From Cinnamomum chago (taxonomy: Eukaryota > Streptophyta > Magnoliopsida > Laurales > Lauraceae): a stretch of DNA of 64,000 nt. Positions 8,701 through 53,600 of this stretch are shown here, one piece after another. The position numbers were made by a program, and so were the translations under genes. The stretch lies in NCBI GenBank assembly GCA_038049695.1, contig CP142453.1, forward strand, positions 126,269,001 through 126,333,000. The letters are read 5' to 3'. Position 1 is the first letter of the stretch; every line of letters starts with the position of its first letter. The notes beneath the pieces were generated by a model. That model saw nothing but the letters and a program-made list of their open reading frames with translations, had not been told where the DNA came from and ran no database searches.

Positions 8701-9671
8701 TGCGTAGGGGTAGCCAAAACTTGAACCCTGCCCAAACCACACCCCAGTCAAAATTCATAGACCCATGTTTTCCTCAAACACAAGAAAATCACAATCAAGC
8801 CTGTCCTTAATAAGGGTGGTTCAGGGACGATCACCAGTTTAACCCAACCCACTGCCATCCCTAACTACACTTTAGCAGGTTATGTCTCCATATGTCATTT
8901 ACAACTATATGTAACACAAGCAAATAGAAAATAATACTTGCTAAAAAAATGAACTGGCCAGATTCAATTGTGCTTTCCCAAAGTGCAAAATGACTCTTAA
9001 ATTGCAAGTATAGAAACTACGATTTACTTAAATGAAGATGATAAAAAAGGACAAAAACAAGGATCTTCTACACTATGATGCCAACATTAAAGTGAAGAAT
9101 CAGATGCGATATGACATGATACGTTGCCTATTTAGAAGTATTTGTGCATCATAGCTTCTACATTGATATGTGCAATGATAATAACAGAGATGAACAATAT
9201 CCAAATTACAGAAAGAGGCTTTCATTAGGCAAAATTACTGTACAGTGTAGCGGATGGTACAATCATATTTTATTTTTAATGATAACACAATGCACATGTG
9301 AAGAGAAAATACTTGATGCAAAGAAAACCAAGATAGATCATGTGCAAGTGTGTCACTTCTTCAAGTATATAGACAAATAGACAATTGAAAGATCATTATA
9401 TGGATGGATTCTACAATTATAGAAGCTCCGATGAAGTTTAAATGTACCCCAAATCTAAACCAGTCAGCAAACATTGATGTTGACTTGGGAGTTTGGACAC
9501 TAAAGGCAGATAACCATCTACTTCACCACACTATTCAAACTGCTTCTGACTTGGGGTACAGCAAAACCAGAGGGAAATTCAACTACGAACTGACTGCAAA
9601 TTAATAGCCATTTCATAGACGAATTTTCCTCATCAAAACCAACCCTGGTAAGTTAAAACTGCATCTGGAAG

Positions 9672-12600
9672 TTAATCTATTTTACTCTTCATTACCTTTT
9701 TTGATTTTTTTTCAGGAAGAACAAGAAGATGAAGTTCCGAACCCATCACAATCTTGTAATTTACCAAAGGACCCCAACCAAGCTCCTTTCCACAGAAAAG
9801 TAGCAGTTGTTTGTCTGTAGATATCCCAGTCCTCTTATAGACCATTTCTTTGACATCATTGATGGTACTTGATATAGTCACAACAAGTGTGATGACATCT
9901 TTATTGGGTGCTCTAACATATATATGTCTCTTCGAGCTTGATGCCGACATGACCAACTGGATAGTGGATTCCTTCTGGATGTTGTAGTTGACCAGAGACA
10001 GATGATTCTCGAGTCGTCTTCCAGAGAAAATGAGATGCTGATGACAGATAGACGATCCCAACTTCTTCTCAATCTTGGCCATGACATGACTGATAGTATC
10101 AGAGCTCTGGACTTCAAGTGTTATGGTTTTTCCCTCCCATGTCTTGACAAATATTTGCATCACAATAGGTGTCAGATGAAGAGTGGATCCTTGACCGATG
10201 TTGTAGTCAATCAGAGTGCAACTGTCTATGAGAGTTTTTTCAGCATGGATGAGTTGTTGTGCATTTAGCGGGACACCCAAGATGCTCTCAATCATGACCT
10301 TGACATCTTCAATTGTATACCATATCTTTAAATCAAGCATAATGTTTTTCCCCTCTGGTGTATTGATGAATATTTGTAATTTATCCGTGGGACAAATGAC
10401 CAAGTGAAGCGTTGAGGCTGCAAGAATGTTGTAAGCGGCCAGAGTCTGACTGTCCTCAAGTGTCCTTCCAGCATAGATGAGTCTTTGCTGTTCAGGTGCC
10501 ACCCTCTCCTTGTCGTGAATGATGGCCTTGATGTTCTGGATGGTATCCCAGGGCTTGACATCCAGTGTAACTGATTTATTGGTTGATGGTATCTTAATGA
10601 AAATTTGCATTCCGACCTTGCTTTGGACAAACAAATGGAGGGTGGAGTGCTTCTGGATGTTGCAATCAGCCAGTGTTTGATTGTTGTTGAGATGATTGCC
10701 TGCAAAAAACATCTCCTGAAGAGTTTCGGGAATGCCTTCCTCATCCCGAAATCTGGCTTTGACATTTCTGATTGTGTCGGACTTCTTTATTTTCAAGGCA
10801 ATGGTCTTCAGAACCTTCACAAAGATTTTCATCTACAACAAAAAAGAAAAGAAGGCACTGGTAAATTGCCATCATAGAGATAAGAGTCCAAATAAGTAAA
10901 ATGAGAAAAACTAGAGTGCACTTCTTCTTTTTTTTTGGCTTTCCCTTGGCAGCAAATTAATCTTGCTAGTTGGTACATGCAGCACATTGACAATCTTATG
11001 GGACTGCATAAGGACCGCAATGATGCCTGTTTGAACAACCATAAACCTTCATATGGAATTTTTTTTTCAGGGAAAAAAATGAATGGCCTATGGTTCTGTT
11101 GACTTTTCATTAACCGCTCTTCCACAACCATCCATTCACTTTCCCAAATAGGTACAAAAAAAAAAAAAAAAAGAATAGAAAAGGGCAGGGTGGGGTGGGG
11201 GGTTTCAGTTTGGGCAATCTATTGGGTGAGAATAGAAACATAATTAATTTACAAGGGACTGTTTGTCTAAATGGGGCAGAAGAACTTTTTTATTCCTGAA
11301 ATCCCATGGCAAAATGTTGGAGAATGGACATTATGGCCAGACATTTTTAGCCGAAATTGCAAAAAGAAACTTCTGGAAAACTCTAGATTTTCTACTTCCA
11401 AAGCTACTAACTTGCAGGAAGAAACTAGCACAATGTACAATAGGACCACCGGCACCTCTATACTCTGTCCACAACCTAGATGGTATTGAATCCCATGTGA
11501 AAGCATATGAGACATCCTGATGAAACCCTTTCTTAGGATCCATTAAAACAATGGCATCCCAAACAACATGTGAGACCTATAAGTCCCTCTTTGTAGATAA
11601 AACTTAAAATTCAGCAAAAGTAAAAGCTCTTGTCCATCTATCTTCATCAACCTCTTGTCGCTTCCATCTTTCTCCAAGGGCTCATTTGTTTCATGGAATC
11701 GAATTCCTACGGGTTCTAAGAAAAATATTTCCAAAAGTGGATACAGTCAAAGAAATAAAGGTAAATTTCCAAAAATGGCTATCAAATAATCTCTTCTTTT
11801 CATGGAAAATGAATTATCGGGAGATTGAAAAAGACTACCCATCATCATACCAGTAAATCATCTTTCCACGTCCCCTTAATTTATTTTCCATTAAAGGGGA
11901 GATATTTGATAGCTATTCAAGGCCGGTTCAATTCATGTAAATAGAGTCTTAGGAATCTTAAGACTTGTATTTCTAAAAGTGACTAAAATTGAAGAAAGAA
12001 GGGTGAATATCCAAAACTAAAAACTGGAGCAATCTCTCCTTCAATGGAAAATGAACCAAGGGAGATCCAAACAACGAAATAATTAGTCAGGCATCACCCA
12101 AGCAATTCAAATTCTAGAAAAGTCAAGTTCCTATCCACATCTCCACCCTATAACCTTCACCTCTCAAAGGTCTCACCTTTTTCCATAATCCTTGGTTGGA
12201 GCCCATGTGACCATTAATTCCTATTAATTAAGTTGCATGAAAACAGACTGACCCCTACGGATATAAACCACTTCAGGAATTCCGATAAAAGAAAAAAAAA
12301 ACCACTTTTGGAAAACGATCTACCAGAAATTCCAAGAATCCAATTCCTCTAACATGTTCCCACCCATTATCAATCCAAACCCTCCAACACACAACAAACA
12401 ACAAACACCATGGATTGAATCATCATTAAATGAAACATATTCAAGGGATATTCAACCAAATACCCATCTCTCATCTCCCTTACTCCTTACTTCTGTGGTT
12501 GCCATGCACCCACAGGTGGCACCCATTCAAAACATGGGGTGCTAGTAGAAAGAACTCAATTGCATCATAACCCAAGTACAAGGCCCTCGTCAACATATGC

Positions 12601-12814
12601 ATGGTGCATTTGTAGAGAGAGAAAAAAAATACAAAGGGTGAAGTCTAAGAAAAGCAACAAGTCGATCGATCGAGAGAGAGAGAGAGAGAGAGGAGGATTT
12701 CATGCACACCTCGCCTTGATCGCTGGACTGCGATCCGTTATCAGCATCTTCAATGGAGCCTGGAGTTGATGCAGTGATTGATGGAGAAAAAGGCCTTTCG
12801 TCGTTGTCCGCCAT
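9672..12814 (-). CDS. Five-domain ubiquitin-like protein, copy A
   Basis: Two exons, complement of 12710-12814 (35 codons, start ATG at 12814) and 9672-10832 (386 codons plus stop), joined in phase 0 to give 421 aa. The donor is GAG|GTGTGC; the acceptor TTGTAG lies directly before an ATG. The first exon encodes an acidic, Ser-rich leader ([12 protein letters not shown]...). The second holds five diverged ubiquitin folds, at exon residues about 1-74, 75-151, 152-224, 225-301 and 302-373. Each keeps the marks of the fold, such as (M/L)QIF.K at its start, DTI..VK..I, QQ.LI.AG..L and STLHL at its end. No repeat ends in RLRGG and none has a diglycine, so processing and conjugation like polyubiquitin are unlikely. 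The C-terminus is Lys-rich ([10 protein letters not shown]). Likely a non-conjugated adaptor, but the function is unknown. An intact paralogue lies at 24447-27357. Confidence 0.85.
10833..12709 (-). other. Intron of ubiquitin-like gene A
   Basis: GT-AG intron of 1877 bp, matching in position and content the 1657-bp intron of copy B. Short open frames at about 11260-11540 are intron noise: both copies share the DNA, but not an open frame. A poly-A tract lies at about 11155-11173 and a (GA)n run at about 12671-12693, both absent from copy B. Confidence 0.8.
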
Positions 12815-13036
12815 CTCTGAATCTATCTATTGATTTGAGAGAGAAAAAGGGTTTCAGGCTTTTCTATTCTAGAATCCAGAGGTAATGAAAGGTGGTGTTG
12901 CGTTTCAAGTTTCAAAAGCTTTGTATTGAATGAATCATATTCTCTTAAAGGACGGTTCTAACTAGAAGAAAGTGGATTCTGGCAGATCCCGTTCCAGCTG
13001 ACAACTGTACGTGCGATATACCAGGTTTTTTTTTTA

Positions 13037-13508
13037 GGGAAAGTTTCAAATAAGTCATTAATTCCTCCCTAAGTGTTTTTTTATTTTTTTTATTTTTTAT
13101 AAGTTTTCAATTAACGACATCCAGCGATTTAAACATACTTTTTGGTGACCTTCTCCCTTAATTTTTTTTAAAAAAATATTCAAAATATCTTTCATTTAAA
13201 GTTACGATGTCCGGCAGTCATTACATGCAACTGATGGCCGTGGGATGCTAGTTGTCATGGATTATTCTGAGGGCGTCGATAAAGGAAATGAGAAGAATTT
13301 AGAGGAAGTGAAAGAAGATTTTTATTTCAATGAAGTGTAATTTGGGTATTTAATAATAAAAAAATAAAGAAAAAAGTTATCGAAAAATAACTTTAAATTG
13401 ATGGATGTCCTTAATTGAACTTTCCGAAAAACTTAATAAGTAATGTGAAAAGTTTTTAAACTTGTGTCATTTTTTGAAATAAGACAATTTTAAGGCCTTA
13501 TTTAGAAA
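13037..13508. mobile_element. MITE with long inverted arms
   Basis: The left end, around GGAAAGTTTCAAATAAGTC, and the right end, around GGCCTTATTTAGAAATTTTTC, are imperfect inverted copies. The match goes inward through the motif GTTTTCAATTAA..ACATCCA and its reverse complement over roughly 150 bp. There is no coding capacity. A single arm of the same family is present at about 14851-15100. Exact ends and target duplication are not clear. Confidence 0.6.
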
Positions 13509-14850
13509 TTTTTCAGTTTTTTTTTTTTTTTTATGACACAGACAAGTATCCCTAACCCTAAGCCTTTGATACAACTAAGCTAATCATCCAGGTAGTGCCC
13601 GTTCAAACCACACAAACACAAACTTTTACATCTTCATTTTGTTGTTGGTTTTTTTTAGTAGAACCCTCATTTTGTTGTTAGAGCATGGTTTCCACCCTCA
13701 ACCAATTTAATCCTTTCTTTTGCATGAATTGGTAAATTCCCAATTATACATTGTTTAGATTTTATTTATTCATCGTTGGATTTCATCACAAAAGGTACTA
13801 TGACGTATATTTTAATCTTAGACTTTAAGGACTTAAAAACTAAGAGTTATAATCATGTGATTAGGTTGATGTCTCATATTCTCATCATTTATGTCCAAAC
13901 TTTGTCATTCTACAACCTTCACGTAGAGGCCATGCATCTAGGTTGGCTCCAATGAGAGGGGCATTTTCTAGTGTCCTCCGTATTTATATTATACTAGCAC
14001 AAAAATCCATGCTAGTTACGGCTATGCATAAAAAGATAGGATTCTATGTATATTAGAAAGGGGGAAGATAGGAGTCATAAATAAGGAGTAAAGTGGAAAG
14101 TGGAGGGAGAGGATGATAGTAGTTATAGAAACCGAAACTAACTGCTAGTTAAAATTAAAAAGTAAAGTCAAAACCAAATCCAAAACCTTCCAGCTTAATA
14201 TATTATAATAGCACTGATCAATTGCGACGTAAAATATAGTGTGATGATTGTGATGCATTTTTAAAACCACGTGAGGCTCCTTTTCCCGGTCTCTCCATGT
14301 AACAAGAGAAAGATCTTTATTGCTGGGTAGGAACATAGGTAGTGTCAGATCGTATGAGTTCGAGGTGTAAGGTAAAAATATGAAAGAATGAGATATTAAT
14401 TCAAACAGAGTTGAATACGATGTCAAGAAAACCGGGATTCATGACATTTCCAGTGGTGAATAAATTAGTCAATGGATATAGAGCCACTGGAATCTATAAC
14501 CCTCTAATGTTGTAATTTAGAAGGTCATTCGATTTAACTTGTGATTGCATTGTCCCAATGCAGTCAAAATGTAGCACATACCTAACCATCTTCTCTGACT
14601 ATCTAATTTGTGATTGGATTTGGATCAGCTATAACACATCCACTTTTATTATGCATATTCCAAATCATTTCAAGTTCATCTCTAACCTTCTAGCAACAAT
14701 GTCTCCAATGGTGAGTATGACTGATTCTTCTCTTATCTTCACATCTCCCTGTTCTCTTTTTTGCATATATTTCTCTTTTCTTTCATGGATGGAGGGGTAA
14801 AATGCATGGTGTAGATTTGATAAGATAGGGGGTTGGTTCAAGTGAAATAA
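13509..14850. other. Intergenic; repeat fragments, no gene seen
   Basis: AT-rich DNA. On the minus strand near 13994-14025 there is a sequence resembling a worn Helitron 3' end (CTAG followed by T after a hairpin-like stretch), not strong enough to call. About 14400-14720 is a copy of the dispersed repeat also found at 2690-3210. Confidence 0.4.
14400..14720 (+). repeat. Dispersed repeat, copy 2 (related to 2690-3210)
   Basis: It shares collinear phrases with 2690-3210, ending at the CTTCTAGCAACAATGTC motif. It is noncoding and of unknown class. Confidence 0.5.
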
Positions 14851-15100
14851 ATAAAGGAAAATTTTCAAATGAGTCCTTAAGTTTTTTACTTATTTCAAAA
14901 AAGGACACAGATTTTAAAACTTTTCAAATTAGTCCCTAAGTTTTCCATGAAGTTTTCAATTAAAGACATTCATCCATTTAAAGCTATTTTCCGGTAACTT
15001 TCTTCTTCAATTTTCTAAACTACCCAAATTATCATTCAATGAAATAAAACCCCCTTTCACTTCCTCTATATTTTTTCCTTTTTTTCACTAAATGTCTTAT
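14851..15100. mobile_element. Single arm of the 13.0-kb MITE family
   Basis: The sequence from GGAAAATTTTCAAATGAGTCC through GTTTTCAATTAAAGACATTCATCC closely follows the reverse complement of the right arm of the MITE at 13037-13508. No opposite arm is found nearby. Confidence 0.55.
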
Positions 15101-15763
15101 AGTGATCGAGAAAAAACTAGCATTTCCATAGAGATTGGCTAAATCCAGTGGCTGCCAAAACCATGTCTGGACTTCAATCTTCTCGAAAATTTCTTATTTG
15201 GTGGGGGCACCTCTCTTCCACAAAATCCGACAATCCTGTTAGGAATTTTGTAGATTGCAATTTGATGGATGCATTATCATTCAATCATCATTTGATTCAC
15301 ACACTTGCATTATTTTAGATAAACTTGAAATCTTGTTTTATTCATGCATTGTTTTTAAGAGTTGTAAAAGTTTTGATTTATGCATGATTTGTTTTTAAAT
15401 CTTGGATGCATTTGTTTTAGAAAAGAGTTTTATCAAATCAAGCTAGCCTTTGGTTTTAAAGTTTTGAATCATTTTAGGCTTTTTATGTTTCATGTTTTTA
15501 AACCTCTTAGAATGATTTAAAACATGTATTCTAGCTTGGTTTAGTGGCCCAAAAATCCTCCCAAAGAAATACCTTCAAATGTGCAAAAATTAGAATTTTT
15601 GTCAAAAGGGGGGTGGCCCGGCAGTGTCGCCGGTCGACCGGCGCAGAGGTCCCGATCGACCGGGAACACTGCAGGTAGAAAGTGGGTCTGGCGCCCCAAC
15701 GGTCATTTTTCTGACCGTTGTGTGATCCCGGTCGACCGAGAACTAGCCGTTGGGCACTTTTTG

Positions 15764-15776
15764 CTATAAATATGAG
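15764..15776 (+). promoter_or_regulatory. TATA-like box inside the solo LTR
   Basis: The sequence TATAAATATG just after the GC-rich U3-like part is a likely retrotransposon core promoter. The call rests on sequence alone. Confidence 0.45.
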
Positions 15777-15931
15777 TTCTTTCCTTTGCCAAAAGTTGGG
15801 AATTTTAAGGCCCTCCTTGAGGGGATTTGAGGCAAATAGAAGGGAAATGAACTAAGGGATGAATGGGAGCATTAGGATAGCTAAAGCTTGGATTAATGAA
15901 GTTAAATCACCAAGTAGGCTTTACTTTCCTT

Positions 15932-16535
15932 AATCATATGTTTTCATGCTTTGTTTTATTTTTGGTAAATCATTTCTAGCATGTTAAACTATGTTTGTGT
16001 TGTGTCCTTAACATGTTTTATGTTTTGAGTTGATTTATTGTTTTGGATACAACACCATATGATTCAATCCAAGTAGTACTTGAATTGGTAAATCTAAGTA
16101 GATCATGTTAATGAAAGAACCTTTGAAATTATATGTAACATGATTCCTATACTTGGTTGAATCTTTGGTTGTTGTTTTCCATCATAAGAAAATCACTTTC
16201 AAAACTATCTTATATTTTGGACTCAACTTCTTTACAAATCATATGTTTTCATGTTTTGTTTTATCATTGGTAAATCTTTAGTAACATGATAAACTATGAA
16301 GTGTTGTATCCTTAGCATGTTTTATACTTTGAATAGATCTATTGTTTTGGATGCATCACCATTTGATTCAATCCAAGTAGTACTTTATCTTTGGTAAATC
16401 TAAGTAGATCATGTTAATGAAATATGTAACATGATTCATATACTTGGTTGAATCTTTGGTTGTTGTTTTTCCATCATAAGAAAATCTCTTTCAAATGTAT
16501 CTTATGTTTTGGATTCAACATCTTTACAAATCATA
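15932..16535 (+). repeat. Internal tandem duplication within the LTR
   Basis: Two diverged units of about 304 bp begin with AATCATATGTTTTCATG at about 15932 and 16236. Both continue through TTGTTTTAT.....GGTAAATC, AAGTAGTACTT and AAGTAGATCATGTTAATGAAA. A third start, AAATCATATGTG, is seen at about 16535. Confidence 0.75.
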
Positions 16536-17878
16536 TGTGTAATATTGTTTTAAAGTTTCACAACTTGCCTTACTTTGATAGGTATATCATATTCAAGTTG
16601 TATTTATAATTACATATGATTTATCCCCTAATTTCAATCAAATCTATTTTTATGTTTTGAGCTACATTGTTGATTTGATTGACATCCCTATGCATCACAT
16701 GTTTAGAGCTGATTCATTTCATACAACTTGTGTATCTTTGACATCATTAACAAGTTGTTACTTTTAACATGTGATTGCATTCTATCCTCAATCATAAATG
16801 TTTTTATGAGTTAAAACTTTCAAAAGCCTTAGGCATACATTTATGAGCTTTCATTTTCAAAATGATTGAAGACCACACACACACACTTCATGTACTTTCA
16901 TCTTTGCATTCATAGTGTGAGTGTGTATTAGTTTTTCACTTCCATATCCGCCTAATTAAGAGGCATTGTAATGAGCTTAATTGAATCTCCATTAAGTGTT
17001 TATAGACACTATCTTAATGAGATAACCAACCTCATGGTTGAAGAGGTTATTGCTTAGCCTATAAAAGCATAATGTATAGGTTGATGTTAAGCCTTGAAAA
17101 ACATCAATGTAAAGGTTATTGCTTAGCCTTGGAAAGCATATTGTAAAGGTTATTGCTTAGCCTATTGAAAAGCATAAGTAATGGAAATCCGGTGGGGTGT
17201 TGGTTCACAAGCCAGTAGTGGATGTAGGCATTGAGGCCGAATCACTATAAATACTTGTGTGATGGTGATTGCTTTGTGGTAATTATTTTGTTAGCTTCCG
17301 CATCTTGTATGATTAATCATCACATGTGACTAGTTTGTTTTAAAGAAGTTAAAATTGATTAAAATTGATCATAGTTGAAGCTCACCCTATTCACCCCCCC
17401 CACTAGGGTTCGGGTCCCCGGACCTTACAAATCCCTGGCTCTAGGGTTGATGGTAGAGACTTCGGTGAGTGTGTGAGTAATTACCTTGAAGAAGAAGAAG
17501 AAGAAGAAGGAAAAAAAAAATCCTAAGTTCAGTTTGTGTTCGGTTGGAATTCCACAATAAGACCCATGTATTGGAAATCTAAGCCATTCAAAATGGATGC
17601 CTTCAATATGTATGTGTTCTTCAAATTTTACTCTAATAGGAGTTAGCCCCACCACCGTAAGATTGACCATATATGATGAATAAGCGCATTAGATCATATT
17701 AATTGCATCATTCATCATATAGGGCAAGGGCATTTACATTGAGTGGCTCAATTTTCCAATATATGGGCCCCACTGTAGGGTTCCACCTTTTCAACTCAGG
17801 AGTTTTCTCAGGCGGCCCCTCAAAGGATCCGTACTCATTATTTTGCAAACTAATGTAGCATATTGGGATAGTTAAAAG

Positions 17879-17985
17879 GCATACAGATGGTATACATTTC
17901 CATGCAGAACCAAGGTAATAATATTCATCAAGCATACAGATGGTATATATTTCCTTGCAGAACTAAGGTAATAATATTCATCCAG
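17879..17985 (+). repeat. 54-bp direct duplication
   Basis: Two adjacent copies run from GCATACAGATGGTATA to GGTAATAATATTCATC, differing at a few positions. Confidence 0.8.
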
Positions 17986-18160
17986 CCAAGCAAAGAGAGG
18001 CACAGGAAAACCATATGTGAGGAAACAAAAAAATCAAAAGCTAACCTTTGATGAGTAGCTTCTACTACATGCAATAAAAAGTTTAGAAAATAGAAAACCC
18101 GAAATTCTATCATGAAAGGGAACAAGAAAAACCCAACGCTGTGCACTTTCAGCCTACCCA

Positions 18161-18490
18161 ACTTTTATTAACCAACACTTCTATATCAAACTCTGCCAAA
18201 GCATAAACATTTTTTTCCCATCTCCATGCTTCAGATTCACCATCTACATAACCTTTTAAAGAAAAGGTAAACTTTTATTAACCAACACTTCTATATCAAA
18301 CTCTGTCAAAGCATAAACATTTTTTTTCCAATCTCCATGCTTCAGATTCACTATCTACATAACCTTTCAGAGAAAAGGTAAACTTTTATTAACCAACACT
18401 TGTATATCAAACTCTGCCAAAGCATAAACATTTTTTCCCCATCTCCATGCTTCAGATCCACTATCTACATAACCTTTCAAAGAAAAGGTA
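18161..18490 (+). repeat. Tandem repeat, three copies of about 110 bp
   Basis: Units begin with ACTTTTATTAACCAACACTT near 18161, 18271 and 18382. Each runs through AAAGCATAAACATTTTTT, TCCATGCTTCAGAT and CTATCTACATAACC to GAAAAGGTAA. Divergence is low, so the expansion is recent. Confidence 0.85.
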
Positions 18491-19964
18491 AGCCGTCTGC
18501 ATATATGCAAGTTCTCAAGAAAGGGTTTTCAGGAGGGTCACGTTCCAAACAGGCTAAACGGCCATCAAATCGGAACAGGTAACACATACTTCAACAAACC
18601 ATTGTCAATTGCAAGGAGTTCTTTTTTTTTTTTTGGTAAATCAATCAACTTGCAAGGAGTTAATAGAACTTGACCTATGTGAGATTTTCCCCTTGAGGTG
18701 ATGTCAACATTGCTGGGGAGCCATCACAAACTCGAACCCCCCTAAATTAAAGGCAACTACGTGCACAAACATTTTGGAGGAGAAAATCCCAGTGTAGCAT
18801 ATTACTATAGGTATAAAAGTTCTGCACTGTAACTGTCAAACTGGCCTTTACAGAAACAACTGGCAGAATGTTTCCTGTCCAATCAATCTATAGACTTCAA
18901 AAGTAACTATTACAAAATGATTCACCTATAAACAAGTGAGATTTTAGTATGCGGTTGAAACTCCCAGCAGCTAACTGACGATATCTGGGGAGAGAGAGAG
19001 TCAGTCAGTCAGTCCGTCCGAAAAGACAACAATAGGTCAAAATAATGACCACAAAATATGGCTAAAAAGATGACAAAAAATTAATTATAGTTCTATAAAC
19101 ACTGCATGACATGTGCAATTACCAAATACCTGGTCGGGAAATTTGATATTTTCTTCTAACAGATTATTATGTCAGCAAACCACACAAAATATTGAAAAAA
19201 AAAATCTACAAGTATTTTTCAAGGTAAGGAACAATTTATCACTTAAAAGGGAGCGAAAGCCATAAAAATACAAATAAAAACAGCTACAAGGAGGGAAGGC
19301 AATTGCCCGACAGTGTTTTGAAACACTCCACTGCCGTGATTGTTGCTTAAGCATTAGGCAACACAGCTGGAGAATGGAAGCAGCAAGATGGTAGTCAAAT
19401 AGAGAAGCAAAAGAGTGGACAATGACCTGATAAACTGGTCCAAGGTAAACAGAGACCTTCACAAGTGAAAGCAGATGAAAGGGCTACAGAGGAGAAGAGA
19501 GAGACCTCTCTCTTCAGAAGAGGAAAGGAAAAAAGAAAAAGAAAGAAAGAAATAAAGAAAAGAAGAAAGGGGAACAGGGCAGTGGGGTGGGGAATTCATG
19601 GCTGTGGAGACAAAAGTTGTGAGCACTATGCAATGACATCCGGATATGTTAAGGTCTATCATAGAAGGATGACCCAACTGGGTGCAACAAGCCAAAACCA
19701 AGTGTGCGAGGCCCACCAACACAGACAAAGAAGAAACTGCCTTGTAGGTCTCAGCCAGATTGTAGGGTCCTCAGATCATATCAATGATAAATGGGGTCCA
19801 CAGCCTCAAATGTGTCCACCAGGGGAACCAATGCAGTTTTGGTATTTTTAAAATTAGTTTTTATTTATTTTTTGCAATGTCAAGTGTAATTAGTGAACTG
19901 TCTGAACAATTAGAAGGCTTAAAGCTAATATAATGAAGTTGGTTTATTTTAATTAGGAATCAAA

Positions 19965-20344
19965 TCAGCCGCTAAGGCATCAAAGACATCAGGCTCACCA
20001 ATCTAATTGGTTCCATACTTTCCATGTACCAAATTCTAGCTAAAGTGTGGGCGGGAAGACTTCAAAGGTGTTTTCATCCATTAGTCCCCCTGCCCAAGGA
20101 GATTTCACACATGGAAGATCGATTTTAAATGGGGTCCTCATCACCAATGAGTGACTTGGTTTATTTTGCAAGCTCAACCTCGAAAGGGCCTTCAATAGAG
20201 TTGATTGGGGCTTTCTTCAACATATGTTACTGGTGGAGATCTTCTTTTTTTGGCACTTATATGGGTCATTTGGAAAGAAAGAAACATGCAACATTTTGAA
20301 GGAGAATTCTCTGATGTAGAGATGTTAGTGAGGCAACTCACAGG
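19965..20344 (+). pseudogene. LINE reverse-transcriptase remnant with internal deletion
   Basis: The plus-strand translation in shifting frames gives KDIRLTNLIGS, YQILAKVWAGRLQ, GDFTHGRSILNGVLITNE and FNRVDWGFLQHMLL. These are consecutive blocks of a plant L1-type reverse transcriptase. It then jumps to LALIWVIWKERNMQHFEG, which belongs to the far C-terminal end of such elements. So the middle of pol is deleted at about 20230, and frames are broken. Confidence 0.75.
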
Positions 20345-23285
20345 TATCCTCCGCCATCCTCCACCACCAAACTTATTACCTTCCTCCATTCCCTCAATTG
20401 ATGAGACACCTCACAAATATCCTCTTCAAATTCGCAAATATGTTGATAGTAATGACTTTATTGCTTCTCACCATTTTTCTCTAGCTTACAAATAGTTCCT
20501 TGCAGCCCTTCACTCTTATATTGAGCCTCAGTCATACAAAGAGGGCCCCCACCTCTTCACACTAGCAACCTGTTATGACGAAAGAACTTGAAGCTTTGCA
20601 CAAGACTCATACATGGTGTCGTGTACCTCTCCCTGATGGCAGAAGTGCTGTTGGTTGCAAATGGATATATAAAATCAAGAACCAATCTGATGGCAACAAC
20701 TAACACTTCAAGGCCCGCCTAGTTGCCAAGGGCTACAAGCAAGAATATGATATTGATTGTGAAGAGACCTTTGCTCTATTTGTCAAAATGACCATTTTTC
20801 ACACTCTAATATATGTGGTTGCCGCTTGTCATTAGCCCTTATTTCAAATGCATGTCAAGAATGCCTTCTTAAACATGGTTTAAAATTGTGGTATCGGTTG
20901 CGGTATCGGTCAAGCCAAAAAACCAGTATGGTATCGATATCGGTCGCGGTTATCGGTCCGTCGCGGTCGTCACGGTGTGGATTTTTTTTTTAGTCCAAAA
21001 AAATCTGTAAAAATATTCAAAAAATCCAAAATATTGGAAAATGCTGGAAAACAATGTTTATTTTCATTAGTACGCATTATAACTAAAAAAATGGGTCCCT
21101 CCTAAGTCTAACTTTTTCTATCGCTATTTAATCTTTAATTGTTGAATATCTTAAGCCATACAATTTAATTTGGGTCATCCTTATAATGTAACAATTGGCG
21201 CCCACCTCAATTTGAGTAAAATCTATTCAGGGCTCATTCAAAAGGGAGTTATTTTTTAGTGTAGATTTTTCATAAGTAAACTGCATTAGAGTGTAGGTTT
21301 TTTAATGTAGATTATTTTAAGTGCAGATCTTTTTAATAGTGGGCTCAAATACTCACGTTTTAGTAAACTTTGCATAAATTTGAGTGATTTTAACATCAAT
21401 GTGTCAAGTGGGCCCCTTCTTAAAAAGTGAGATTTGGCCAAGGTCATGATACAGAGGAGCAACATTCCACATGCCCACATAGTGCAGCTCACCAATCCAC
21501 GTGTGACTTGCCCGCCCCAATACAATCTTTGATGGCATACGAATCTAGGGCTAAATAAGAGCAGTTTCTTTCGCCCCTTTCGCTTTGAGTTTTGACCGCA
21601 GCAAGTGAAAACGGGGAAATGGAAAAGAGGAAGAAGATGGAAAGAAAAATGGGGAGGACAGAGGAGGAGCAGCAGGATCCAAGTGTATGTAGGGCAGCAC
21701 CAGGCAGACCCAGGTGCCTCTCTCTCCCTTTCCATCTATTTTTTCTGTAGCAGCCTGAAATATGCTTGAGATGAGATTGAGATCTTTTTCATTTTATTTA
21801 TTCTGCTACATATATACATCGATTTCTCTTCCTTTTCTGTGGGAATGGAGAAACTTCTGCCAATTTCTTTTTCTTTTTTTTTTTTGTGAAAATCGAAAAA
21901 AAGTAAATTAAAATGAGTTGGAAATGTACTTGACTGATATTTAAAAATATCGGCCGATATATTGGTCGCAACCGATATTTCCAAGATATCGGCTGAGACA
22001 GACCGATATTTGGAGGGACCGAATCCGAAACCGATAAACGTCAAAATATCGGATCAGTATGGACCGATACCGGTTCGTATCGGCCAATACGAACCAGTAT
22101 CGGCCGATATTTTAACCCATGTTCTTGAACGACCTTCTCATAGAAGAAATTTACAGGACTCCGCCGCTGAAGCCTTCTTCTTCCATCACATTATGTATGA
22201 GATTGCGCCGAGCTTTGAATGGAATCAAACAAGCCCCTCGGCTTGGTTTGACCGATTCTGCAATGCCTTCCTCAATTTTGGTTATTCCCATAGCTTCCAT
22301 AATTTCACATCGTTCTTCTTCTCTACCACCAGCGGTTACATGCTTCTTCTTCTCAATGTTGATGATATATTTATCATAGATGATGATCAAGAAGGAATCT
22401 GATCTCGCAAGACCTTTCTCAACTCACAGTTTGACATGAAAGATCTTGGTCCTCTGTGCTGCTTCTTGGGCATGGAAGTTGACTACTCACCATAAGTCTA
22501 TCTTATAAAACAAATGAAGTATCTTGGAGGTATTCTTGAGTGAGCAAGGCTAACTTATTCCAAAACAGTTAGCACTGAACATGAGCTTAACCAAAAGCGC
22601 TCTGCTTTTAATGGCACTACTTTCTCTGATTCCACTCGCAATCAGCAGCTTGTAGGCAATTGTCTACTTAACTATCTCTCAACCTGACAATACTTAGCCA
22701 ATCCGAATGGTAAGTCAGTTCGTCTTTGCTCCTAATTCTATTCATTGGGTTGTTGTTTTTAACTTGGCTTAGCTCCTATTTTTATTCATTGGGTGGTTTT
22801 TTAATTTTATTTTGCTCTATCTTCAAGGGACAATGAATCAAGTCCTTCTTTCTAATGATAGCTCTCTCCAACTCACTGCCAACTTTGATTCTAATTGAGC
22901 TTGATGTGTTGATAGTTGTCACTTTAGTATGGGTTCCTACATCTTCCTTGGCCCCCTTTTCTGATTTCCTAGAAGAGAAAGAAACAATCAGTTGTTTCCC
23001 ATTCTTCCACGGAAGCCAAATACTGTGCTTAGCTCATACTACTGCTAAGATTATTTGGCTTTGTGGGCTACTTGCTGATATGGGTGTTTTCTTACATACT
23101 CCAACTCCTCCATATTGTTGACCATGCAAGTGTTCTCTGGATTGTTCACAATGATGTCTTCCCTGACTGCACCAAACATATAGAGATCGATTGACACTTC
23201 GTTCAGCATCATCTTCCCAAGCACACCATCCTTCTTCATGCCATCTCCATTAGCCTTTTGATCTCTTCACTAAGCCTCACCCCAG
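20345..23285 (+). pseudogene. Ty1/copia pol remnant, interrupted by an insertion
   Basis: Before the interruption (to 20873) the translation includes YVDSNDFIASHH, LAALHSYIEPQSYKE, GCKWIYKIKNQSDG, ARLVAKGYKQEYDIDCEETFA and FQMHVKNAFLN, the N-terminal copia reverse transcriptase. After 22122 it resumes with FLNDLLIEEIYRTPP, ALNGIKQAPR, LLNVDDIFI (the catalytic VDD box), DMKDLGPLCCFLGMEV and RNQQLVG. It then enters RNase H (ANFDSN, LLADMGVFLHTPTPPYC). There are many stops and frameshifts and no LTRs at the ends, so the element is dead. Confidence 0.85.
20874..22121. mobile_element. 1.25-kb terminal-inverted-repeat element inserted in copia pol
   Basis: The left end CATGGTTTAAAAT and right end ATTTTAACCCATG are inverted copies. 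Copia sequence flanks it with TTCTTAAA (20866-20873) and TTCTTGAA (22122-22129), an 8-bp duplication with one change; a 9-bp reading (TTCTTAAAC/TTCTTGAAC) is also possible. Both inner sides carry many GGTATCGG/CCGATACC motifs. The size of the duplication fits hAT (8) or MULE (9). No transposase is seen, so it is non-autonomous. The centre (about 21300-21740) has a different composition and could be captured host DNA. Confidence 0.8.
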
Positions 23286-24446
23286 TCTTAGTTTTCAGCA
23301 GTTAATGTCCATATGGTCCTCATGTACCACCATAACCTCCAGAGGATCACCACTATTTGATAGTCTCTCATGTACCATACATTTTCCCGGATTCAAATAG
23401 TTAGCCAAAGTTCATTATATTTGTGTAGATAAGCTCATCATTACCAATATGGTACATGAGACTCCATTATAAATAGAGTGGTTGGGAACATTGACACACC
23501 ACAACTTCTTCAATCCCTGGGCTTCTTGAGTTGTTTTAGAGGTAGCCAAAACTCAAACCCAGCCTGAACTGCTCCCCAGTCAAAATTTATAGACCCGTAT
23601 TTTCCTTAAACCTAAGAAAACCATTATCAAACCTGCCCATTATAGGGGTGGGTTGGAGAGGGTCACCATTTCAACCCAATCAACTACCATCCCTAACTAC
23701 ACTTTAGCAGATTATCCCTCCATGTATCATTTACAGCTATACGTAACACAAGTGAAGAAAAAGAATACTTGCTAAAAAAACGATTGTGTTTCCAGAAGTC
23801 TATATAGATACTTAAATTGCATGTATAGAACTTATGATGTGTTTAAATGATGAAGATAGAAAAAGGAGAAAAGCAAGGATCTCCTACATTATAATGTACA
23901 ATAATAATAATAATTAACAGACAGAACAATATCCAAATTACAAAAAAAGGCTTTCATTAGAGTAATACAATCATATTATATTCATAACGATAACACAATG
24001 CACATGTGAAGGGAAAATACTTGATACAAAGAAAACCAAGACAGTTCATGTGCAAGTTGGTCAATTCTCCAAGTATATAGAAGATTGAATGATCAAGTAT
24101 ATGGACAAATTCTACAATGTCCAAATACAATTATAGGAGATCTGATGAAGTTTAAATGTACCCCAGATCTTAAAACAGTATGCAAACAATGATGTTGACT
24201 TGGGAGTTGGAAAACTAAAACGGTGGCCCACTCAAAAATTTTCCTGATTTAATGTCAATGTAAACACAGAGTAGACAACCATCCACTTCACCACAATGTT
24301 TAAACTGCTTGTAGCGTGGGGTTCATCAAAATCAGAGGAAATTTTCACTGCGAACTGGCTGCAATTTTATAGCCATTTCATAGCCGAATTTTACTCATCA
24401 AAACCAACCCTGATAAGTTAAAACTGAATATGGAGGTTAATCTATT
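23286..24446. other. 3' flank of ubiquitin-like gene B
   Basis: From about 23540 the sequence aligns with 8708-9670 downstream of copy A. There is no open frame of interest. A short (AAT)n run lies at about 23901-23912. Confidence 0.6.
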
Positions 24447-27357
24447 TTACACTTCATTACCTTTTGAATTCTGATTTGTTGTAGAGGAAACAGCAAGACA
24501 AAGTGTTGATCCCATCCCAATATTGCATTGTTCCAAAGAACGCTTACCACGAACCTCGTCTCCAGAGTAATATAGGATTTGTTGGTTGGTAGGAACCCTG
24601 GTCCTCTCACAGACCATTTCTTTTACATCATTGATGGTACTTGAAAGGTTCACATCAAGTGTAAGAACACCATAATTCGATGTCTTGACATATATGTGTT
24701 TCACCAAGCTTGATACTGACATGACCAACTGGAGGGTGGATTCCTTCTGGATGTTGTAGTCAGCCAGAGACAGGTGATTCTTGAGCTGTCTTCCAGAGAA
24801 AACAAGATGCTGATGACAGGGAAATGTTCCTAACTTCTTCTCAATCTTGGCCATGACATGATTGATAGTGTCAGAGCTGTGGACTTCAAGTGTTATAATT
24901 TTTCCCTCCCATGTCTTGACAAATATCTGCACAAGAGACATCAGATGAAGCGTGGACCCTTGACTGATGTTGTAATCAATCAGAGTGCAGCTGTCTGTGA
25001 GAGTTTTTTCAGCATGGATGAGTTGTTGTGCATTTAGCGGGACACCCAAGACGCTCTCAATCATGACCTTGACATCTTCAATAGTATACCATATCTTTAC
25101 ATCAAGCATGATGTTTTCCCCATGTGGTGTATTAATGAATATTTGTAATTTATCTGTGGGACGAATAACCAAGTGAAGGGTTGAGGTCGCAAGGATGTTG
25201 TAAGCAGCTAGAGTCTGGCTGTCCTCAAGTGTCCTTCCAGCATAGATGAGTGTTTGCTGTTCAGGTGGGACCCTCTCCTTGTCATGAATAATGGCCTTGA
25301 TGTTCTGGATGGTATCCCAGGGCTTGACATCCAGTGTAACTGATTTACCAGTTGATGGTATCTTAACAAAAATTTGCATTCTGGCCGAACTATGGACATA
25401 CATATGGAGAGTGGAGTACTTCTGGATGTTGCAATCAGCCAGTGTTTGATTGTTGTTAAGGTGATTGCCTGCAAAAAATATCTCCTGAAGATTTTCGGGA
25501 ATGCCCTCCTCATCCTGAAATCTGGCTTTGACATCTCTGATTGTGTCAGACCTCTTTATGTCCAAGGCTATGGTCTTTGTAACCTTCAAAAAGAGTTTCA
25601 TCTACACCAAAGAAGAAAAGAAGGCATTGATAAATTGCTATCATAGAGATAGAATCAAAACAAAAAGAGATAATCTAGAGTGCACATGGAAGCAACTTTA
25701 GCTTGGAACATGCAGCACATTGACAAGGATTAGAACTGATCATCTTATGGGACTACAAATGGACCCCAACAATGCCTGGTTCAACAATCATAAATCTTCA
25801 TGTGGAGAAATTTTCTCAGAAAAAAATGAATAGTCAATGGTTCTGTTGACTTTTCATTAACCACTTTTATCTCAACCATTCATTTACTTCTCCAATAGGC
25901 ACACCAAAAAAATGGGTTTTGGGCAATCCATTGGGTGAAAATGAGAAATTATAATTAATTACATGACTCTGTTTGACAAAATGGTAGAGAGCATCTTTTT
26001 TATCCCTGAAATCCCATGGCAAAAATGCGGGGGAATAGCCATTACAGACATGTCTAGAAAAAAAAAAAAAACAGTTATATGGTTCGTTGAAAACAGTAAC
26101 TTTCTGAAAACTCTAGCTTCTCTACTTTCCAAAAGTGACTAACTTGCAGGAAGAAACTAGCACAAATGAACAATAAGATCACAAGCACCTCTATACCCAA
26201 GTCCACATTCTAGGTGGTATAGAATAGAATCCCCTGTGCAAGTATATGAAACATCTGAATGAAACCCTTTTCTAGGATTCATTAAAACATTGGCATCCCA
26301 TTCAATGTTTGGAAAGTATATGTCCCAGTTTGTAGGTAAGACTGGACATTCAGCGCCATATAAAAGGTCTTGTCCATCTATCTTTCATCAACCTCGTCAC
26401 TTCCATCGTTCTCTAAGTGCTCATTTGTTTCATGAAATTGAACTCCTAGGAGTTTTAAGAAATGTTTTTCCAAAGTGGCTAAACTTGAAGAAATAAAGGT
26501 GAATATTCATAAGTGTCTATCAATTAATCCCTCCTTTAAATGGAAAATGAACTAAAAGATGGAAAAATAATACACTCCATCACCCTACCCTAGTAAATCA
26601 TTTTCCATATAGCCATTTAAGGCATGTTTGTCCGTACAATTGAATTCTTAGGACTATTGAGACTTGTATTTCTAAAAGTGGTTAAAATTGAAGAAACAAT
26701 GATGAATAACCAAAAATGAGCATGAAATAATCCCCCCTTCAATGTCAAATGAGTCAAGGGGAGATGTGAAATCAATACTCAGCCACCACCGTAGTAATTC
26801 AAATCCTAGAATGCTCCGAACACCTTATATCCTTCACCCCTCACCTATTCAATAATCCTTTTTTGTAGCTCATCCGACCATAAATTCCTATGAATCTAGT
26901 TTCACGCAAACATGGGCGCCCTTTTGGATATTACCCACTATTAGAAAACCATTTCTTAGAAATCCAAGGAATCCAATTCCATGAAACAAATGAATATTAG
27001 GAATAACTAACCAAATTGACACTAACCCAACAATTATCCACTTCCAGAATGAGTCGTGATCAAATGAAACTTAATCTAGGATGAGGATTATCTGTTCAAA
27101 CCCATGTAATGTTCGACCAACCCCTAATTCACACAACACCCATCTCATCTCCCTTCTTCAACATATGCAAAATCTAGCGGTTCAACAACCCTGCAACTGT
27201 GTGAAGTCGATCAAAGGACAGTATAAGAGAAATGAACAAGGGAGGTGGGCATGTATACCTCGTCTTGATCGTTGGACTGCGACCTATCAGTGGCATTTTC
27301 AATAGAGATTGGAGGTGGTGTTGAAGGAGAAAGAGGACTTTCGTTGTTCTCTGTCAT
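24447..27357 (-). CDS. Five-domain ubiquitin-like protein, copy B
   Basis: Exons are the complement of 27259-27357 (33 codons, start ATG at 27357) and 24447-25601 (384 codons plus stop), joined in phase 0, for 417 aa. The donor is GAG|GTATAC; the acceptor GGTGTAG lies directly before ATG, as in copy A. The leader reads [16 protein letters not shown] and is acidic, Ser/Pro-rich and probably disordered. Five ubiquitin folds follow, starting with KLFLKV, MQIFVK, LQIFIN, VQIFVK and KHIYVK. The fourth has lost the starting Met found in copy A. None has a C-terminal diglycine. Both paralogues are open with the same gene structure despite many substitutions, which suggests selection to keep the proteins. 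Role unknown; adaptor or shuttle functions are possible. Transcription would run away from BLOS1. Confidence 0.85.
25602..27258 (-). other. Intron of ubiquitin-like gene B
   Basis: GT-AG, 1657 bp, homologous along its length to the intron of copy A. No coding sequence seen. Confidence 0.8.
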
Positions 27358-38215: not shown

Positions 38216-38440
38216 AGAAATATATGCATCTAAAAAAAAAAACACAGTGATGAACCATTTGCTTTCTCTGTTGGACTAAATCAGATTTGTTAGAGCAAAT
38301 AGAATAAAATCACAAACTCAAAACCACCGTAACATTCAAAATTGAAAATAACATAAATACAAAAAAGATAAAGTAAGCCAATTAGAGGATCTATATTTCA
38401 AATCAACAAACCAGTAATTTATATTTTGAAATTCTACCTT

Positions 38441-39455
38441 AATCAATTCATGAGTCTCATCCCGCATCATATGATTTTACGGACGGTTAGAATAGAGGTG
38501 GTGGACCCCATTCATCATGGTCCCACTTAAATAGGCTAGGTTTGGTCAATTTGTGAGGTCTATGATCATTCGATCATTTGATCTTTATCAATCAATTCAT
38601 GGGTCCTAGCCCGCATCATATGGTTTTATGGACGGTTAGAATAGAGATGGTGGATCCCATTCATCTGGGTCCCACTTAAATATATTTGGTCAATTTGTTA
38701 GGTCTATGATCATTTGATCATTTGATCTTTCCTAATCAATTCATGGGTCCCATCCCGCATAATATTGTTTTATGGACTGTTTGAATAAAGATGGTGGACC
38801 CTATTCATCTGGGGGGTTCCACTTAAATAGGTTAGGTTCGGTCGGTCTATGATCATTTGATCTTTATCAATCAATTCACAGGTCTCAGCCCGCATCATAT
38901 GGTTTTATGGATAGTTAGAATATAGATGGTGGAGCCCATTCATCTGGATCCCACTTAAGTATGTTTGGTCAATTCGTGAGGTCTATGATCATTTGATTAT
39001 TTGATCTTTATCAAGCAGTTCCCAGCCTGTATTATATGATTTTATGGACGGTTAGATTATAGATGGTGGACCCCATTTATCTGGGGGATCTCACTTAATT
39101 AAATAGATTAGGTTTGGTCAATTTGTGAGGTCTATGATCATTTGATCCTTTCAACTTTATCAATCAATTAATGGATCTCAGCCCGTATCATATGGTTTCA
39201 TGGACGGTTAGAATAGTGATAGTGGACTCTATTCATCTGGGTCCCACTTAAATATATTTGGTCAATTTGTTAGGACTATGATCATTTGATCTTTCTTAAT
39301 CAATTCATGGGTCACATCCCGCATAATATGGTTTTATGGACGGTTATAATAGAGATGATGGACCCCATTTATCTAGGGGGTCCCACTTAAATAGGTTAAG
39401 TTTGGTCAATTTGTGAGGTCTATGATCATTTGATCTTTATCAAGCAATTCATGGG
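38441..39455 (+). repeat. Minisatellite of about seven ~142-bp units inside the Helitron
   Basis: Units begin with AATCAATTCATGGGTC-like sequence near 38441, 38591, 38733, 38868, 39011, 39161 and 39300, with a partial unit at about 39441. Each runs through CCCGCATCATATGGTTTTATGG, ACGGTTAGAATAGAGATGG, CCCATTCATCTGGG and TCTATGATCATTTGATC. Period varies from about 135 to 150 bp. Confidence 0.88.
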
Positions 39456-39606
39456 TCCCAGAAACATCTATAAAAAAATATAAATATCAAATTAGCAATA
39501 AAAAGGACTCACAAGTTTACTAATTAATAAATTTATTAAAAATAATTTGTATTAGTCCGTACATTTAGTAATTCCGTAGTCCGTGCATAGCACGGGGTTT
39601 TGCTAG

Positions 39607-50601: not shown

Positions 50602-53600
50602 GTTGAGGCATGAATCATAATTTTGGTCCTTATGTTTCCATCTATCCATCAACTTGAGACAGGTTGCAGAGATTTTGAGGAAGAGGGCTATTCCAGAGGC
50701 CGTCTCCTTAATTAGATGGGTCCTATGGATATTGGCTACCAGATTGGGGACACTGATTCTATGTGGGTTTGCTAGTTTTAGCTGGAAATATCCATTCATT
50801 TACAAGTTCTCAGAAATTCCTGCGGAGAAGAGAGAGGAGATTCTGAAGAGTTGGTCAAGAGAAAGGTCTCTAATTGCTTTGAAGTTGGCCTTTGTGCTGC
50901 TTAAGGTCTTCTGCTTCTACGTATTCTTTTCATTGGTAAGGTGTCTGTCATACATACTACCATTTCTACCATGTGTCATTTCTCATCATGGGCTGGGTTG
51001 CATTTGGTTGCTATAACTATTTACTTAAATATTAAACATTGGTCTATTAATGAGAATGTTGAAAAGAAATGAGCACTGGCCTGCATTCAGTTCAAGTACA
51101 TAACTGGATTTATGGATTCCACCAGTCTCCTGAAATGGCAGTCTTCAGTGAAGATTTTCAGATGTTTGCCCCTAGTTATCTTCACCCTCTTCTAGTACAG
51201 GCAGGGTATTTGATTTCTTTAATAGAAACTGAAATGGGAATCTCAACCATTTCCCAAATCCAAACAGCTTCGCTTCTGAAAATGGGAGAAAATCTACCTC
51301 AGGGTATTTCAACTGAAGCACCTGCAGCGTTTTATTCATTTCAATCATTTTCAGGATCTCATCCCTTTCTAGTGCTTGCAGCTCAGCTGTTACGATGACC
51401 TCCTCAACCCACATTTGCAGTGGGCCCTTCTTATAAAGGGGCTTAATTCTCATATCTCATGATTCCATATATATAAGTTCCTAGACATACATGCTTGGAT
51501 AAATTATGCATCTCTTGGTCTTGAGTGGTTTGTGCACACACGTGTGCAAGTGTCCCTTACTATTTAGACACACCGTAATAGCAGCTTAGTTGCACCATAT
51601 TAAGGTGCATATTACATGTATTCGGACCTGTGGTGTGAACATCCAAAACATCCATCTGAACCATCTGATTTTGGTCTGTGCCTCAATGCAACTAAAGCCA
51701 AACATGGTCGATTAGGAAGTCCATTCGGTTAGGAATTAGGATTGCCTGCTAAAGGTGAATCTTGAGATAAACATGGGCAATTTAAGATGGGAGTATCATT
51801 TTGCAAATATCAATTGCATATTATCATCTTTATTTATTTATTTTTTGTAGAAGCATATTACCATCTTAATGATGTGATTTTGATGAAGTTCTATCTGGGG
51901 GGAAAATGTCTTAGGCAAGTGTACAGGCAAATGAAGACTCTCATGCCGCTGTACCATTTCAAGTTCCTGACTATTCTTTCTTCTCCTGCAGACTGATGAG
52001 AATTCAGAAAACCCAGTATTCAATGCAATTGGGTATAGAATAGACACTGGTGATGATGGTGATGATGAAACATTATCTAAAAACCAAAGTGAGAGGCCTC
52101 TCCAAAAGGGTATCATAGACACTGCCAATCTATCAGAAACATCTTTCCTCGACTCCCTTACTGAGAAAGGCATACAAGTCACATTGGATCCTGTCCTTGA
52201 CCTTTACAAACTCAAATGCGACGTTGTCGTTGTTGGCTCTGGTTCAGGCGGTGGAGTTGCAGCAGCAGTTCTTGCAAGTTCTGGCCAAAAGGTCATTGTC
52301 CTTGAGAAAGGAAACTACTTCACACCTGAAGATTATTCCAGTATTGAAGCCCCTTCCTTGAATCAAATGTATGAATCAGGTGGAATTCTATCAACACTTG
52401 ATGGGAAGACGATGATATTTGCTGGATCAACAGTCGGGGGTGGTTCAGCAGTAAACTGGTCAGCCTCAATAAAGACACCAAAAGGTGTCCTCAATGAATG
52501 GGCAGAAATCCAAAAGCTGTCTCTCTTTGCAAATGCAGAATATCATATGGCTATGGACGCTGTCTGCAAGAGGCTCGGAGTCACAGAGAATTGTCTGGAG
52601 GAAGGATTGCAAAATCAAGTTCTTCGGAAGGGGTGTGAGAATCTTGGTCTGAAGGTAGAATATGTTCCACGGAACTCCTCAGAGAGGCATTACTGTGGTT
52701 CTTGCGGTTACGGTTGTAAAACAGGAGAGAAAAGAGGAACTGATTCAACATGGTTAGTTGACGCTGTAAACTCAGGTGCTGTGATCTTAACAGGATGCAA
52801 AGCAGAGAAATTTATACTGGAAGACAACAAATCAGGCCAAAAGAAGAGGAAGGAGTGCTTGGGAGTGATGGCACAGACTCTCAATGGTAACATTAAGAAG
52901 AGATTACAAATTCAAGCAAAAATCACTATTTCAGCATGTGGGTCTCTCTTGACACCCCCTTTAATGATATCTAGTGGGCTACAGAACCCTAACATAGGCA
53001 AAAACCTTCATCTCCACCCTGTTACAATGGTATGGGGATATTTTCCCGACTCTGCATCACATCTCAAGGGTAAAATATTTGAAGGCGGGATAATTACATC
53101 GTTACACAAAGTGTTATCTGATGATTCAAATGTTCGGGCTGTCATAGAAGCGCCTGCGCTTGGGCCTTCTTCATTTTCTGCTCTGGTTCCTTGGGTATCT
53201 GGACTGGATATGAAGGAGAGGATGCTAAAATACGGGCGGACTGCACATTTATTTCCACTGATAAGAGATTGTGGGTCTGGAGAGGTGAAGAGAGAAGGGA
53301 GGATAACATACAGGATGGCTAAATTAGACAAGGAGAATTTAAGAGCTGGAATGCAGAGGGCGCTAAAGATTCTGGTTGCGGCTGGGGCGGTGGAGGTGGG
53401 TACCCATCGGAGTGACGGGCAGAGATTGAAGTGCAAAGGGATAAGACAAGAAGATTTGGATCAATTCTTGGATGAGGTAAATGTAGTGGGAGGACCAAGG
53501 TCAAGGGAAGAGCACTGGACTCTCTACTGCTCTGCTCATCAGATGGGGAGTTGTAGAATGGGTGCCAGTGAGGAAGAGGGTGCAGTTGATGAGAATGGGG

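Follow-up and report, generated by a model that had tools for sequence, protein, structure and literature searches.

Two neighboring genes in a stretch of the Cinnamomum chago genome encode proteins built from five successive ubiquitin-like (UBL) domains, none of which ends in the diglycine (GG) that ubiquitin requires for cleavage and conjugation. The stretch, hereafter the window, comprises 64,000 nucleotides of contig CP142453.1 (G000:C3:126269001-126333000), and the genome searched for comparison totals 1.06 Gb in 14 contigs. We propose, with a probability of roughly 0.55, that the two are functional tandem genes for a fixed five-domain ubiquitin-like protein of polyubiquitin descent, working as a mimic of a ubiquitin chain. 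Both genes lie on the minus strand (A, 12814-9672; B, 27357-24447), and each consists of a short exon 1 and a single long exon 2, exactly where a preliminary description of the window had placed them. Their features, in window coordinates, are as follows.

12710..12814, minus strand: gene A exon 1, ATG and 35-codon acidic leader rich in Ser, Thr and Pro (from sequence)
10833..12709, minus strand: gene A intron, phase 0, abutting the ATG of domain 1 and containing a dispersed repeat of ~300 bp
9672..10832, minus strand: gene A exon 2, encoding five ubiquitin-like domains, with the stop at 9674-9672 (Pfam, structure model)
10611..10832, minus strand: gene A domain 1, first hairpin short by three residues
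10380..10610, minus strand: gene A domain 2, the constrained domain
10161..10379, minus strand: gene A domain 3
9927..10160, minus strand: gene A domain 4
9675..9926, minus strand: gene A domain 5 with the C-terminal tail, evolving fast
27259..27357, minus strand: gene B exon 1, 33-codon leader
25602..27258, minus strand: gene B intron, position and phase as in gene A
24447..25601, minus strand: gene B exon 2, encoding five ubiquitin-like domains, with the stop at 24449-24447 (Pfam, structure model)
25380..25601, minus strand: gene B domain 1
25149..25379, minus strand: gene B domain 2
24933..25148, minus strand: gene B domain 3
24699..24932, minus strand: gene B domain 4
24450..24698, minus strand: gene B domain 5 and tail
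8705..12066, no strand assigned: tandem duplication segment A, in blocks 77-83% identical to segment B (BLASTN)
23537..26765, no strand assigned: tandem duplication segment B (BLASTN)

The predicted proteins have 421 (A) and 417 (B) residues. Exon 2 is 86% identical between the genes over 1,158 aligned bases, a resemblance that is not due to chance. Splice borders predicted from sequence are GAG/gtgtgc...ttgtag/ATG in A and GAG/gtatac...gtgtag/ATG in B, both in phase 0. The separate leader exon is acidic, as previously suggested (net charge -7 in A and -6 in B), and its ATG and phase are kept in both copies despite a 6-base indel. The introns of both genes contain a dispersed repeat of ~300 bp (approximately bases 446-744 of window:24447-27357 on the minus strand), which made up most of what an own-genome DNA search returned, with 38 further copies at 72-82% identity among 40 scored of 2,842 candidates. 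The repeat is probably a small transposable element that predates the tandem duplication.

Exon 2 of each gene matches the Pfam family PF00240 five times (whole-protein E-values 4.9e-83 and 2.4e-95), and all ten single domains exceed the family cut-off in the genome search, which upholds the original assignment of five diverged ubiquitin folds to each open exon. Also as first described, GG is missing at ubiquitin positions 72-76 in every one of the ten domains; for domains 1-5, these positions read QSKVG, CPTDK, IV---, SASSS and LPEKK in gene A, and HSSAR, RPTDK, L----, SVSSL and SSTTN in gene B. The C-termini of both proteins lack the LRLRGG or GG ending of conjugable modifiers of the ISG15 and FAT10 type, and the Pfam families listed for exon 2 at E <= 1 (13 and 22) include no UBA, other ubiquitin-binding or protease domain. 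Identity to ubiquitin is 55/50% (A/B) for domain 1, 57/61% for domain 2, 45/46% for domain 3, 58/59% for domain 4 and 36/33% for domain 5. Domains at different positions are 27-46% identical to one another, whereas counterparts in A and B share 78%, 92%, 88%, 78% and 45% from domain 1 to domain 5. These values, and the lack of GG, set the window genes apart from ordinary polyubiquitin; in that of locus L024 of this genome, seven identical units all end in RLRGG.

Residues expected of the fold are nonetheless kept, with 74 of 75 core cells hydrophobic in A and the same number in B. Domain 2 also retains Ile44, His68 and Val70 of ubiquitin, but not Leu8. Structure models built from a two-sequence alignment predict a beta-grasp fold for domains 2-5 in A and B alike, with mean pLDDT of 78.6 (B) and 77.3 (A) and with pTM values (0.43 and 0.32) at which domain arrangement is not reliable. 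The top Foldseek matches are linear tetra-ubiquitins; their TM-scores are low (0.2-0.4) because the models do not reproduce the arrangement of the domains.

The position of the intron points to where the array came from. In both A and B, it ends immediately before the ATG of domain 1, and plant polyubiquitin genes such as L024 likewise combine head-to-tail ubiquitin folds in one exon with an intron directly before the first ATG. A ubiquitin-start pattern run on the examined loci returned 15 rows, six of which correspond to window gene A or to internal repeats. Among the nine other ubiquitin-gene starts, a pyrimidine-rich tract and CAG precede the ATG in six (L001, L005, L006, L024, L033 and L046, the last in an array containing a stop), and this acceptor signal is absent at the remaining three (L050-L052). 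The intron in the 5' untranslated region (5'UTR) of a Gladiolus polyubiquitin gene is among the subjects of PMC3406973. Domains 1, 2 and 4 are closer to ubiquitin than to one another, which fits separate divergence of each from ubiquitin. For A1-A4, the four of ten window rows listed, ubiquitin is the closest row in the domain tree once the A/B partner is set aside. All five A/B pairs form starred branches in this tree, but 11 of its 24 inner branches stay open and long branches come together, and we used from it only nearest-neighbor distances and a link involving domain 4 (see below). From the position of the intron, a polyubiquitin gene was probably the source of the array, its 5'UTR exon giving rise to the leader. 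Taking these sequence comparisons together, we consider polyubiquitin descent, already put forward in the preliminary description, to be likely; exon 1 would then probably be a former 5'UTR exon that has become an ATG-initiated open frame in both copies.

Relatives of the pair were sought in its own genome, and the counts given here are lower bounds; six further places were read as short stretches. A search with the gene B exon located 66 places (84 candidates, all scored). Only window genes A and B match along all five domains, and the remaining strong matches fall at ordinary polyubiquitin loci. Decayed copies lie on contig C2 at 3.263 and 3.268 Mb (L028) and on contig C6 at 63.609, 63.650 and 63.807 Mb (L019, L020 and L021). 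They contain stops and frame changes, and their surviving pieces are colinear with the window array. By eye, decayed copies and window genes share Trp-Asp-Thr-Ile-Gln and a first hairpin one residue longer in domain 2, Ile-Trp-x-Thr in domain 3, and Trp at position 8 of domain 4; GG, again by eye, is missing at the readable junctions of the decayed copies. The domain tree joins domain 4 of the decayed copies to domain 4 of the window genes (83/90), and at the DNA level gene A domain 4 matches L019, L020 and L028 at 72.5-80.0% identity (78-103 bits) versus 66-73% for the polyubiquitin loci L026 and L027 (50-54 bits). Judged by sequence, therefore, domain 4 of the decayed copies shares descent with window domain 4. 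The corresponding join for domain 2 is weak (73/51), and the decayed domain 2 pieces are about equally close to ubiquitin (46% and 49%) and to window domain 2 (47-51%).

Across the domain 5 stretch, three of the decayed copies show 94-95% pairwise identity, which suggests that they probably spread after a common loss, that is, by recent multiplication of a copy that was already dead. The array without GG is probably older than the split between live and dead copies, a conclusion best supported for domain 4. The earlier proposal that the array had become fixed is thus probable: the GG-less junctions and the grouping of domain 4 favor it, but the decayed pieces of domains 2 and 3 are no nearer to the window domains than to ubiquitin.

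The strongest evidence that the genes have been maintained comes from their reading frames. Across 1,605 aligned bases, 33 indels separate the introns of A and B, and 18% of these have a length divisible by three. A single indel (6 bases) lies in exon 1 and three (3, 3 and 4 bases) lie in exon 2, for 4 over 1,257 aligned bases together where ~26 would be expected. We simulated neutral evolution of the coding sequence at intron-derived rates, counting a copy as intact if no stop preceded 95% of its length; even one copy remained intact in 0 of 20,000 runs, whichever of two intron rate sets was applied. When substitutions alone were allowed, 26 of 20,000 runs left both copies intact and 1,497 left at least one. 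We rejected the idea that the open frames are due to gene conversion alone. The 3' half of the intron has a Jukes-Cantor distance (0.235) little above the synonymous divergence (dS) from leader to domain 4 (0.18), yet carries 19 indels over 858 aligned bases, so conversion alone is insufficient. The preliminary description was therefore right to read the open frames as a sign of selection, and it is very likely that both genes are functional now or were until very recently.

Amino acid changes tell a more uneven story. Omega, the ratio of nonsynonymous to synonymous divergence (dN/dS), is 0.53 by NG86 (bootstrap 0.38-0.74). Under a codon model, maximum-likelihood (ML) omega is 0.64 from the leader to domain 4 (p=0.035) and 0.215 for domain 2 (p=0.0016), the only single part significantly below 1. 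Third positions hold an excess of changes in domain 2 (13 of 20, p=0.004) and over the whole protein (80 of 196, p=0.017). In addition, 93 of 900 bases differ in domains 1-4, compared with 123 of 794 for two blocks of the intron (p=0.0017). Evidence for selection is thus strong from the frames, and from the amino acids it is strong for domain 2 only.

Several observations count against our interpretation. ML omega for the whole protein, which we prefer to the NG86 value as the less favorable figure, is 0.74 (p=0.09), so the per-domain dN/dS check suggested by the preliminary description bears it out for domain 2 and falls short elsewhere. By the same method, omega is 1.05 for the leader, 0.91 for domain 1 and 1.03 for domain 5 with the tail, and neither domain 3 (0.53) nor domain 4 (0.77) is significantly below 1. 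The third-position excess is significant in one of six parts, domain 2; the leader has none (8 of 23 changes across 33 aligned codons). A 4-base DNA gap follows domain 5 in the C-terminal tail, and puts the final residues of A and B out of frame with each other. None of the ten domains carries the whole canonical Ile44 patch, with Leu8 substituted or missing in each, and the shortened first hairpin of domain 1 is poorly predicted (pLDDT 36 and 42 over the first ten residues). Finally, at least five related copies are dead, and the sole decayed domain 3 piece is 40% identical to ubiquitin and only 27% and 31% to window domain 3.

Some of these points, namely the whole-protein omega not significantly below 1, the values of ~1 in the leader and domain 5, the frameshifted tail and the decay of at least five relatives, would be expected if A and B were two polyubiquitin-derived pseudogenes that have lost their diglycines and have yet to acquire a stop. 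We regard this as improbable given the neutral simulations, the proportion of exon indels that are multiples of three (three of four, against 18% of 33 in the intron), the constraint on domain 2 and the lower divergence of domains 1-4 relative to the intron blocks. A recently broken polyubiquitin was likewise rejected as the leading explanation because both copies retain open frames where neutral evolution would predict their loss, and the GG-less junctions of the decayed relatives fit this rejection. The per-domain omega and third-position patterns can also be read as those of a functional gene that depends on a portion of the array only (domain 2, perhaps domains 1-4) and lets domain 5 and the leader drift. 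In that case, the leader may be 5'UTR, with translation starting at the exon 2 ATG, which stands at the polyubiquitin start position. Against this stand the retention of the leader ATG and phase in both copies across an indel of 6 bases and the preserved fold signature of domain 5 (see below), and we view this alternative as unlikely, albeit one to be taken seriously.

Domain 5 differs between A and B at 56 of 209 bases, more than the 3' flank (26 of 164, p=0.012) or the two intron blocks (41 of 292 and 82 of 502, p=0.0002). It is fast at synonymous and nonsynonymous sites alike, with a dS of 0.44. Its 15 core positions are all hydrophobic in both genes, and 12 of them are identical compared with 24 of 55 elsewhere in the domain (p=0.012). 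The same test gave p=0.18-0.90 in the other four domains and p=0.042 with all five pooled. Polarization against a very remote outgroup (43-46% identity) assigned changes at 16 and 15 sites to the two copies and left 27 undecided. We rejected the possibility that domain 5 was replaced by a copy from the decayed family, as A and B are only 43-46% identical to that family.

One explanation is that domain 5 diversifies as a surface that meets a changing partner, for example, a pathogen protein. Divergence above that of adjacent noncoding blocks and of domains 1-4, a conserved core beneath a changed surface and changes on both copies accord with this idea. However, dS is raised as well and omega reaches only ~1, the same picture would arise from a local bias in mutation or from conversion by an unseen copy, and the outgroup is remote; we consider this explanation rather doubtful. 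Because synonymous sites are fast too, the excess in domain 5 may reflect diversifying selection, local mutation or conversion.

Returning to the proposed five-domain protein, its sequence offers some indication of what it might do. By established ubiquitin biochemistry, a domain without a C-terminal GG can be neither released by deubiquitinases nor activated by E1. The array would consequently stay in one piece and act without conjugation. The likeliest role is that of a non-cleavable, non-conjugable mimic of a ubiquitin chain, an assignment we make tentatively. The product would be a preformed linear chain analog recognized by ubiquitin-binding proteins, mainly through domain 2, whose constraint and retained Ile44, His68 and Val70 single it out as the domain most apt to offer a ubiquitin-like contact surface. 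The other domains would supply valency, spacing or contacts to other partners, with domain 5 diversifying. We further speculate, as a rather long shot, that a polyubiquitin gene lost all its cut sites, escaped the homogenization by which polyubiquitin units stay identical and converted its 5'UTR exon to a coding leader, yielding an uncuttable linear chain of individually specialized domains, the last of which diversifies against a changing partner. That the protein is still a ubiquitin-type precursor, cut at non-canonical sites to free UBL modifiers, seems scarcely credible; apart from polyubiquitin descent nothing favors it, and GG is lacking in all ten domains and, by eye, at the readable junctions of the decayed relatives.

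Comparison with known systems gives this role some context. Passages of PMC8764230 describe the tandem UBL of mammalian OASL, which lacks LRLRGG, is thought to mimic poly-ubiquitin and to bind RIG-I; avian OASLs, according to the same passages, do have LRLRGG. As tandem ubiquitin folds without LRLRGG, mammalian OASL is the nearest working model for the window genes, although it is found in animals and has two domains, placed at the C-terminal end of an OAS protein. The tandem of chicken OASL (7sbi) was among the Foldseek matches, at 26% identity. Another match, the UBL (HUBL) region of USP7, is similarly a row of UBL folds within a larger protein, but shares only 8-9% identity and is joined to a protease, a domain for which the window exons have no match at E <= 1. 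The HUBL region has five UBLs. The UBL-UBA shuttle receptors RAD23, DSK2 and DDI1 differ in having a UBA-type partner domain, which is not among the Pfam families of window exon 2.

Closer to home, the Arabidopsis UBQ family, the subject of work by Callis and colleagues in 1995, reportedly includes polyubiquitin-derived genes with diverged units, which are reportedly closer to ubiquitin than the units of the window genes. In the C. chago genome, kinase-like open reading frames (ORFs) at L009 and L010, which we take to be of the PI4K-gamma type, contain two UBLs in one ORF and, by eye, no diglycine end. Small diverged UBL ORFs of 180-297 residues occur in several copies at L011, L012, L013, L014, L015 and L018 (contigs C11, C10 and C9); they have two or three UBL matches and again, by eye, no diglycine end. 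In the domain tree, the rows representing L009, L010, L012 and L013 group with window domains in no starred branch. A scan of viral_contigs with the two-protein alignment returned 109 stretches that fit a pattern, none of which codes for a relative. Listings from an open-licence literature library included no described plant family of this kind, which is not evidence of absence.

Elsewhere in the window, an open frame on the plus strand at 729-1271 matches Phytochelatin_C (PF09328, 2.7e-68), the C-terminal part of a phytochelatin synthase gene and one example of the gene content that marks the genome as a plant's. A second, at 51971-53737 (plus strand, 588 residues), matches GMC oxidoreductase (PF00732, PF05199) and presumably resembles plant long-chain alcohol oxidase. 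A minisatellite of approximately seven 144-bp units occupies 38439-39461.

Ubiquitin is among the least changeable of proteins, and the units of polyubiquitin are kept alike. The evidence so far is one gene pair in one genome. If our interpretation is true, this pair would be a case of a modifier precursor turned into a stable multi-domain protein, and would provide a natural, non-hydrolysable linear ubiquitin-chain analog from plants for testing ubiquitin-binding proteins.

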